This document shows, piece after piece, positions 30,233 through 39,382 of a stretch of 49,883 bases of DNA (positions within the stretch are counted from its first letter, which is position 1; each line of letters starts with the position of its first letter). Under the pieces are notes generated by a model, which worked only from the letters and a program-made list of their open reading frames with translations, made no database searches and was not told the origin of the DNA. Both the position numbers and the translations under genes were made by a program. Origin of the DNA: Gammaproteobacteria bacterium (lineage in GTDB: Bacteria; Pseudomonadota; Gammaproteobacteria; SG8-11); contig JAHECY010000019.1 in the NCBI GenBank assembly GCA_024641505.1, forward strand, positions 1 through 49,883. The letters are read 5' to 3'.

Positions 30233-30308
<76 letters not shown>

Positions 30309-30378: not shown

Positions 30379-30452
30379 GGCTGAGTGGCAGAGTGGTTAT
30401 GCAGCGGCCTGCAAAGCCGTGTACCTCGGTTCGATTCCGGGCTCAGCCTCCA
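30379..30452 (+). tRNA. tRNA-Cys (anticodon GCA)
   Basis: A 74-nt tRNA with acceptor stem GGCTGAG/CTCAGCC, discriminator T, encoded CCA and anticodon GCA at 30411-30413. It occupies the cysT position. The 294-bp gap to the next tRNA contains only a GGCC-rich hairpin (about 30534-30551) without a T-run. Confidence 0.98.
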
Positions 30453-30746: not shown

Positions 30747-31054
30747 GCCCGGGTGGCGAAATTGGTAGACGCAAGGGACTTATAATTTGAGCACCCGATT
30801 TGGAAACAGTCGGAGTGAATGGAGTCAAATTCGGGGAACCCTCAGTGCCTAACGGCAGTGGCAATCCCGAGCTAAGCCTGATCAGGAAAGTGTAGAGACT
30901 TGACGGCTCCCACCTAAGTCATCAGTTTGATAGGGTGAAGAGAAAGTCCAGACCCCAAATGTGTTCATGACACACAGCAGCTAAAGCTGTAGCGGGTAAG
31001 AAAATCCCTCGGAGCTTAACCTCCGTGCCGGTTCGATTCCGGCCCCGGGCACCA
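30747..31054 (+). tRNA. tRNA-Leu (anticodon UAA), interrupted by a group I intron
   Basis: The exons are 30747-30781 and 31001-31054, 89 nt in total with encoded CCA. Acceptor stem is GCCCGGG/CCCGGGC with discriminator A. Joined, the anticodon arm reads AGGGA-CTTAAAA-TCCCT, so the anticodon T-A-A is split between T (position 34) and A-A (positions 35-36). A long variable arm (CGGAG/CTCCG) confirms a leucine class II tRNA. The exons resemble E. coli leuZ, which occupies the same place after glyW-cysT. Splicing is needed to make a functional tRNA. Confidence 0.96.
30782..31000 (+). ncRNA. Group I intron in the tRNA-Leu anticodon loop
   Basis: A 219-nt insertion with a group I core. The 5' exon end CUU pairs with an internal guide GAG a few bases inside the intron (U.G at the splice site), as in the Anabaena tRNA-Leu intron. 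P4 can form between TTCGGGG (30830-30836) and TCCCGAG (30865-30871). The R element GTAGAGACTTGACGG and S element AAGTCC give P7 (30897-30901 with 30944-30948). P8 arms CACCT/AGGGTG and a P9-like hairpin AGCTAAAGCT follow. The last base is the conserved terminal G (31000). No homing endonuclease is encoded. It should self-splice using exogenous guanosine; activity is inferred from structure. Confidence 0.93.
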
Positions 31055-37378: not shown

Positions 37379-39133
37379 TCATCTCCCGCTCATCGCCGGC
37401 GCCACCGCCACCGCATTGGTAAGCGTGGGTGCATCCAGGTCATTACGCGCTGTTTGCAATCTAACCAGAGTTTGCGGTCCAACTACTCCGTCAGGCAGTA
37501 GACGATGCTGACGCTGAAATGTTTTCACCCTTTGCAGGAGTCTATCGTCAAATACAGAATAAGACCGCTGCGCCTCCTGCAAGCCCTCGATCTGATCCAG
37601 GGTACGACCCAACCAATCGGCGGCGTTACCTTGGGCTCCTGGTTTAATAACCTCATCATCAAATGGCGGGCGACGCCATAGTATGAGTACGTCACCATAC
37701 CAGTAAGGCTCGAGATCGGCTGTCAGAAATTGTTGCTCGCCCTGTGGCAATAGAAACGTCACTTGGGTAGCGTTTAGCTTATTGACCGCTAAATGATGTC
37801 TGTCACCGTTCTTATCCAACAACTCGATGATGGCGGGCCGATTAAGTTCACGCAGGTTGTTCCAGGTACCTTTGGTGTACAGGCAATTCAAGTCAACTTC
37901 CAAGGCTCTTTCACAACCCCCATTGCCATGCAACGAGGTATAATCTTCATGCCAGAGATTAAACAGCATTCGAAACGCTGAATACGTATCGCTGGCCAAA
38001 GCGGTATCTCCCAGAAAGGCCTCGATGCTCTGTGTTGCGGGTTTTAACAGACTATCGACATTGATGACCACGGAGCGCACATCCGCCGCATCTTCCCCAG
38101 GTGTTGGTTGAGTTAGTACTTGCGGAGCTTCCGGGGAAACCGTTACTGGCGTTGAAGTGGCTGGTGTAGCTATGACCGGTGCTGGTGCTTGCGCTACTAC
38201 TTGGGGGGACGGCTGACGTACAAACCAATAGAAAACCAGCCCACTCACTATTACTGACGCAGCTGCGGCAATCGCGGCAATGATCCAACTCCGCTTAAGC
38301 ACAGTATTGTCTTCAGGCTCCAGTTCACCGGCAATTTCCTTGACTGCATGACGGGCGATAACCGGATCAACCTTGTCTTTCTCCTGCGTATAAGCCCCCA
38401 GCAGAGCGCGATCACACACCACATTGATCAATCGTGGTACGCCTTGCGTAGCCTTTTGAATAACTTCTACCGCCGCACGCGTAAAAACCGGTTCCATGCA
38501 GCCGGCAATTTTTAACCGATGCCGAATATATTCCTGAGTATGGTTGAAAGCCAGAGGCAATAAGTGATAACGGCCTGTGATGCGTTGCGCCAGTTGCCGA
38601 AGTTCCTTACGTGCCAACAGCAGACGTAATTCCGGTTGTCCGACAAGAATCATCATCAACAATTTGGTTTTAGTAGTCTCTAGATTGGTAAGCAGGCGAA
38701 TTTGTTCGAGCACCTCCACATCGAGATTCTGCGCTTCATCGATCATTACCGCCGTGCGGCGGCCTTTGCTGTGATTTTCCAACAAATGTCTATTCAGACT
38801 ATCCACCAGATCTTTGAGACTGTACTTATTCGCGACATCATAAGTTATATGCAGTTCATCACAAATGGACCGGACGAATTCCGTAGGCGTCTGCCGGGGA
38901 TTGAACAGCAGCGCCATATCAACTTCCGGCGGTATCTGTTCCAGCAAAGCACGCGTCAACATGGTCTTCCCGGTACCGACTTCACCGGTGAGTTGAATAA
39001 AACCGCCCCACTGCTGGGTGCCGTACAACAGGTGTGCCAGCGCCTCCTTATGTTGCTCACTAAGGTAGAGGTAGCGGGGATCCGGTGAAATAGAAAACGG
39101 ATTTTCTGTTAATCCAAAATATTGGTAATACAT
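37379..39133 (-). CDS. exeA: GspA/ExeA-type AAA ATPase with peptidoglycan-binding domain
   Basis: About 584 residues. The ATG at 39133 is chosen because the family starts 'MY..(Y/H)FGL...PF...PDP.(Y/F)LY'; an upstream TTG (39172) would add 13 unlikely residues. AAA domain: Walker A 'GEVGTGKT' (50-57), Walker B 'VMIDEAQNL' (about 128-136), 'LVGQPEL', and arginine-rich C-terminal part 'RITGRYHL'. A transmembrane segment (about 280-300) is followed by a periplasmic region ending in a peptidoglycan-binding domain ('VKTFQRQHRLLPDGVVGPQTLVRL'). ExeA and GspB form a complex that remodels peptidoglycan for type II secretin assembly. The two genes are an operon. Confidence 0.93.
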   Translation of the reverse strand: MYYQYFGLTENPFSISPDPRYLYLSEQHKEALAHLLYGTQQWGGFIQLTGEVGTGKTMLTRALLEQIPPEVDMALLFNPRQTPTEFVRSICDELHITYDVANKYSLKDLVDSLNRHLLENHSKGRRTAVMIDEAQNLDVEVLEQIRLLTNLETTKTKLLMMILVGQPELRLLLARKELRQLAQRITGRYHLLPLAFNHTQEYIRHRLKIAGCMEPVFTRAAVEVIQKATQGVPRLINVVCDRALLGAYTQEKDKVDPVIARHAVKEIAGELEPEDNTVLKRSWIIAAIAAAASVIVSGLVFYWFVRQPSPQVVAQAPAPVIATPATSTPVTVSPEAPQVLTQPTPGEDAADVRSVVINVDSLLKPATQSIEAFLGDTALASDTYSAFRMLFNLWHEDYTSLHGNGGCERALEVDLNCLYTKGTWNNLRELNRPAIIELLDKNGDRHHLAVNKLNATQVTFLLPQGEQQFLTADLEPYWYGDVLILWRRPPFDDEVIKPGAQGNAADWLGRTLDQIEGLQEAQRSYSVFDDRLLQRVKTFQRQHRLLPDGVVGPQTLVRLQTARNDLDAPTLTNAVAVAPAMSGR

Positions 39134-39382
39134 TAAAAGTTTCAGGACTTGGGCTGGGCTTAATGAACGCAATCCGCGTATACGATAATCCGAGGATTAT
39201 ACCGGTTTTAGAAGCGCTGGTATCTCCGAAAACGCACCTGAACAGCAGCCATGGGCGCTGAGACCCACGCATATTCCATTATAATATTATGTGATATAGT
39301 AATTGCATGAATGTACTACCTTTATTATTCAGCGATGATTGTCTGGCATACAGGGCAATAATGATAGTACTATTTCCACATC

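Follow-up and report, generated by a model that had tools for sequence, protein, structure and literature searches.

A group I intron in the tRNA-Leu(UAA) gene of a gammaproteobacterial glyW-cysT-leuZ locus and its relatives at the same site

The window analysed here, a stretch of 49,883 nucleotides from a gammaproteobacterial draft genome (contig JAHECY010000019.1), contains a tRNA-Leu(UAA) gene at 30747-31054 on the plus strand, which is split by a 219-nt insert (30782-31000) between U34 and A35, i.e. at the position used by the tRNA-Leu(UAA) intron family. With introns allowed, ARAGORN reported a tRNA-Leu(taa) with a 219-nt intron at identical coordinates; run without introns, it missed tRNA-Leu(UAA) and detected only tRNA-Gly(GCC) and tRNA-Cys(GCA) upstream. 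The joined exons form an RNA of 89 nt that folds into a perfect canonical tRNA-Leu(UAA) cloverleaf. An earlier note, made from the letters of this DNA, had claimed an insert of this length at this position as well as the gene order glyW-cysT-leuZ; the former proved exact and the latter is borne out by the two upstream tRNA genes. The features of the locus are the following.

30233-30308, plus strand: tRNA-Gly(GCC) (ARAGORN)
30379-30452, plus strand: tRNA-Cys(GCA) (ARAGORN)
30747-30781, plus strand: 5' exon of tRNA-Leu(UAA), last base U34 (ARAGORN intron mode, spliced fold, sequence)
30782-31000, plus strand: group I intron, IC3-type, 219 nt, terminal G (RF00028, exon pairing, 128 same-site relatives)
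30779-30791, plus strand: P1, exon CUU 30779-30781 with GAG 30789-30791, U.G at the 5' splice site (pairing in relatives)
30792-30817, plus strand: P2 hairpin (outer three pairs 94% kept, 51 double-change cells)
30821-30910, plus strand: P3, 30821-30826 with 30905-30910 (99.7% of 600 cells paired, 187 double changes)
30830-30871, plus strand: P4, 30830-30835 with 30866-30871 (96% paired in relatives)
30840-30841 with 30860-30861, plus strand: outer pairs of P5 (98% paired in relatives)
30871-30891, plus strand: P6 with the P6a hairpin 30877-30886 (P6a 93% paired, 104 double changes)
30897-30948, plus strand: P7, 30897-30900 with 30945-30948, the helix that binds guanosine, forming a pseudoknot with P3 (99% paired, 11 double changes)
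30911-30937, plus strand: P8, 30911-30914 with 30934-30937 (99.5% paired, 62 double changes)
30960-30989, plus strand: P9 (30960-30974) and the terminal hairpin, 30978-30981 with 30986-30989 (pairing in relatives)
31001-31054, plus strand: 3' exon of tRNA-Leu(UAA), A35 to CCA (sequence, ARAGORN intron mode, spliced fold)

Elsewhere in the window, positions 37379-39172 on the minus strand resemble an XrtA/PEP-CTERM system-associated ATPase, the best NCBIfam match scoring under its cut-off.

The insert is a genuine group I intron and belongs to the tRNA-Leu(UAA) IC3 family. A covariance-model search, which the earlier note had proposed as a check, returned a match of Rfam RF00028 (Intron_gpI) at 30771-30969 with 51.1 bits (E 3.7e-10), a score that only slightly exceeds the gathering score of 50; it is the sole match of this model in the 4.78-Mb genome. 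The helices were read from the window and their pairing was scored in 100-110 same-site relatives aligned by sequence. Between 96 and 100% of the cells were paired in P1, P3, P4, P7, P8 and the terminal hairpin (97.5% in the latter, with several pair types), and compensatory changes occurred in all of these except P1, which is paired in 300 of 300 cells from 100 relatives but does not vary and was in part imposed by the search pattern. In control comparisons, in which the partner strands were slid by 1-3 columns, the pairing of P1, P3, P4, P6a, P7 and P8 dropped to 1-71% (34-66% for P3, 1-50% for P7). The window intron has the complete group I core P3-P4-P6-P7-P8 including the P3/P7 pseudoknot, the last base of the 5' exon pairs with the G of P1 (U34.G at 30781/30789), and the intron ends in G31000, so that the previously described CUU/GAG P1 and terminal G were found again. 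Among the P4, P7, P8 and P9 elements named in the same description, the first three are kept in the relatives at the percentages listed above; P9 as drawn is paired in only 45% of them and is lineage-specific. The 3' exon could be placed in 128 of the 141 same-site loci collected, and all 128 start with AAAA and continue with the anticodon-stem complement; terminal G and AAAA are not independent observations in the relatives, because the criterion by which the 3' end was located demanded a terminal G and a near-AAAA start.

The earlier note regarded a second, intact tRNA-Leu(UAA) gene with an unspliced copy at this locus as one of the findings that would speak against its proposal. The genome is a draft of 4.78 Mb and 99.5% completeness with 37 tRNA matches, which include tRNA-Leu TAG, CAA, CAG and GAG; no intact tRNA-Leu TAA was found among these 37 matches, and a spliced anticodon arm is absent from the draft even when up to three mismatches are allowed. 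A standard tRNA search thus shows no tRNA for UUA in this genome; of the 948 leucine codons in the larger open reading frames of the window, 100 are UUA. The interrupted leuZ is probably the sole UUA reader of this genome, and as no intact gene was found in the draft and UUA is used, splicing is presumably essential. An intact, unassembled tRNA-Leu(UAA) gene is conceivable, because the assembly is a draft and other expected tRNAs, namely Phe-GAA, Arg-ACG, Ser-GGA, Ile-GAT and Ala-TGC, are likewise missing among its matches. The related gammaproteobacterium G182 seems to hold an intact tRNA-Leu(UAA) (G182:C1:24588-24612) together with a copy containing an HNH-bearing intron (L075, on a small contig), which illustrates that an interrupted gene can be accompanied by an intact one elsewhere in the genome. 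This example, the draft state of the assembly and the marginal Rfam score are what could be said for a dead, non-splicing relic in a cell whose UUA codons are read by another tRNA. We consider such a relic extremely improbable, since the catalytic-core pairs, the splice-site pairs and the tRNA stems are all intact, and the draft gave no sign of another UAA gene.

The tRNA-Leu(UAA) intron is classically linked to cyanobacteria and plastids and serves as a textbook example of an ancient intron. The rarity outside these groups that the earlier note implied does not hold: introns at the same site are common, though patchy, in Gamma- and Alphaproteobacteria and occur in several other phyla. The search pattern, a gammaproteobacterial 5' exon followed by TTGAGC, matched 17 of the 369 sampled gammaproteobacterial genomes. 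One of these matches (L081 in G156) is false, as it lies in a protein-coding region whose reading frame begins like a type IV pilin, and therefore at least 16 of the 369 genomes, from about a dozen families and including that of the window, carry the intron; an intronless tRNA-Leu(UAA) is present in at least 246 of the 369. A scan of named genomes gave at least 117 matches, with Cyanobacteria, Alpha- and Gammaproteobacteria, Acidobacteriota, Chloroflexota, Binatota and Bacillota among the matches listed, some phyla being represented by metagenome bins in which mis-binning is possible. Of 41 gammaproteobacterial loci, a few of them from duplicate genomes, 29 have leuZ preceded by glyW and cysT or by cysT only. 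Within family f2, one genome (G005) has the intron and another (G162) an intact leuZ, in both cases in the same Gly-Cys-Leu tRNA cluster. In the drafts G001-G004, which belong to the genus or family of the window genome, leuZ was not found with or without intron, the pgsA-anchored search not reaching it. Seven loci (L041-L045, L047 and L048) are gammaproteobacterial tRNA-Ile(CAU) group I introns, and two of the genomes concerned, G005 and G049, have the tRNA-Leu intron as well.

The same-site intron is also found on phages and plasmids, and some of its relatives carry a homing endonuclease gene. Seven distinct gammaproteobacterial introns of 684-706 nt (L068, L069, L072, L075, L152, L163 and L168) contain, in antisense orientation within the P6 loop, an intact HNH reading frame (Pfam HNH_3/HNH). 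The motif LELDHINGN...N...LCPNCHA is intact in these seven loci and in the phages. No such gene is present in the window intron, which with 219 nt is too short for it. On contig L082, whose clamp loader and sliding clamp are of the T4 type, a row of seven tRNA genes is followed by a tRNA-Leu(UAA) with intron and HNH gene. Two contigs from the viral collection (L089 and L090), on which PHROGs identified a metallophosphoesterase, a PhoH-like protein and a head-maturation-type protease, bear such introns too, and the tRNA-Leu(UAA) of a further one (L095) is split by the same-site intron. The HNH gene is antisense in L082 and L091, which are viral contigs as well, and sense in L089. According to a review from 2014, every phage intron then known sat in protein genes (PMC3984707). 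No match to the cyanobacterial exon type turned up when the viral contigs were scanned. Among the candidates rejected are the intact phage tRNA-Leu genes L083, L084, L088, L092 and L093, whose variable arm mimics the search pattern, and the further false matches L086, L087, L094 and L096.

In another viral contig (L085), an integrase gene is located just downstream of the intron-bearing tRNA-Leu, and because the two adjoin, this contig end is likely to be host sequence at an attachment site; in Acidovorax phage AP1 (L100), the last 31 nt of the same tRNA-Leu adjoin the integrase. Regarding plasmids, pCTX-M3 (L097, NC_004464.2, about 61818-62138) and L098 have a complete, unannotated tRNA-Leu(UAA) with a group I intron, next to the tmrB-like ATPase and aac(3)-IId. 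This gene, alphaproteobacteria-like in both exons and intron, was detected in 1280 plasmid records as well as 635 of the 5426 complete genomes of E. coli.

The earlier note also proposed to compare the phylogenies of intron and exons. The intron tree comprises 129 rows and approximately 215 columns, does not include plastid sequences and is weak in places. A branch with 100/100 support separates all same-site introns from the gammaproteobacterial tRNA-Ile(CAU) introns, which places the window intron with the introns of its own site and not with those of other tRNAs. Nineteen of the 21 cyanobacterial introns form one group (94/93) that is split from the other 104 rows at 100/91. The window intron belongs to a set of 47 rows (support 98/93), of which 33 are gammaproteobacterial; its nearest relatives are all gammaproteobacterial, with a highest identity of 86%. 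Alphaproteobacterial introns form a separate block (97/98), and those of the Thiotrichales their own subclade. The exons are typical of the host class whatever the intron type. In the cyanobacteria Myxacorys almedinensis (L153) and Oscillatoriaceae Prado104 (L173), cyanobacterial exons surround introns that group among the proteobacterial-type ones; this placement is tentative, because all cyanobacterial introns as one clade were not rejected by the AU test (p 0.15).

Taken at face value, the shared site, P1 and intron class could suggest that the window lineage acquired the intron more or less directly from a cyanobacterium or a plastid. The two cyanobacteria just mentioned indicate that exchange may happen, and a tree in which the window intron joins the main cyanobacterial clade was not rejected by the AU test (p 0.22). 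Nevertheless, a supported branch parts it from the main cyanobacterial introns in the best tree, its nearest relatives are gammaproteobacterial throughout, and intron divergence partly tracks that of the host gene pgsA (Spearman 0.50 between intron and pgsA distances in 15 gammaproteobacteria, with 19 of 2000 permutations giving an equally high value). In view of the 100/91 split and the 98/93 gammaproteobacterial set, we consider a cyanobacterial origin disfavoured, though not formally rejected, and a direct transfer very unlikely. Alternatively, the intron could be strictly ancestral in the Pseudomonadota, or even in bacteria, with losses only and no transfer. The clear alpha and gamma blocks, the conservation of the glyW-cysT-leuZ locus in most gammaproteobacterial carriers and the same correlation with pgsA agree with this idea. 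It is nonetheless unlikely, as a single clade of all gammaproteobacterial introns was rejected (AU test, p 0.00016), a Gammaproteobacterium (L073) and the prophage flank L085 combine exons of the gamma type with an intron of the alpha type, HNH genes and phage copies were detected, and the intronless genomes counted above would need very many losses. The tree and the patchy occurrence are best read as those of an intron that is probably old in the group and in which descent, loss and some transfer may have acted together.

The identification as an Anabaena- or plastid-type tRNA-Leu group I intron in a conserved glyW-cysT-leuZ locus is supported. With the cyanobacterial and plastid introns (Anabaena, trnL) the window intron shares the gene, the U34/A35 site, the CUU/GAG P1, the core and the terminal G, but it falls outside the main cyanobacterial clade and its exons are gammaproteobacterial. 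The first gammaproteobacterial tRNA-Leu(UAA) group I intron was reportedly found by Vepritskiy et al. in 2002 in a deep-subsurface Pseudomonas isolate. For the gammaproteobacterial Beggiatoaceae, tRNA-Leu-TAA genes split by group I introns have been described from Thiomargarita nelsonii and, with reference to earlier work, from Beggiatoa 'BOGUAY' (PMC4853749); because such introns are published, the window intron is a further case of a known family. It resembles those of Thiomargarita and Beggiatoa in being a group I intron of tRNA-Leu(UAA) in the same bacterial class, but its host belongs to another gammaproteobacterial lineage, and the introns from Thiomargarita and Thioploca (L204, L136) were among the relatives compared. 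The alphaproteobacterial tRNA-Leu(UAA) introns (Bradyrhizobium, Caulobacter, Sphingobium and others) have the same site and architecture, yet form the separate block mentioned above. Group I introns in tRNA-Ile(CAU), known from Acidovorax and Burkholderia (PMC8450103), likewise belong to the class of small introns in tRNA anticodon loops but differ in gene and site.

Altogether, we favour, with a probability of roughly 0.9, a functional tRNA-Leu(UAA) IC3 intron without endonuclease, which belongs to a lineage that is proteobacterial and was shaped by descent, recurrent losses and the homing of relatives with HNH genes. The precursor tRNA would be transcribed from the chromosomal glyW-cysT-leuZ locus, and the intron core would fold and dock the CUU/GAG P1. 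A guanosine held at P7 is expected to attack after U34, and the freed U34 would then attack after the terminal G to give a normal tRNA-Leu(UAA), chemistry that we infer for this organism. Splicing must presumably be efficient, because leuZ seems to be the only UUA-reading tRNA gene. In the window copy the homing endonuclease may have been lost or never present, the intron being inherited with its gene.

By itself, the window intron adds a well-bounded case to the family and is of modest importance. In a broader picture, to which we give about even odds, the tRNA-Leu(UAA) intron would represent a bacteria-wide, recurrently mobile lineage with the cyanobacterial and plastid intron as one branch; in Proteobacteria it would have been spread by HNH genes in P6, phages with whole intron-bearing tRNA-Leu genes being one vehicle, and the window copy would be a stabilised, endonuclease-free descendant. 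The wider set of introns, with its several phyla, homing genes in P6, copies on phages and plasmids and presence or absence in one family, makes deep ancestry versus transfer a testable question in Proteobacteria.
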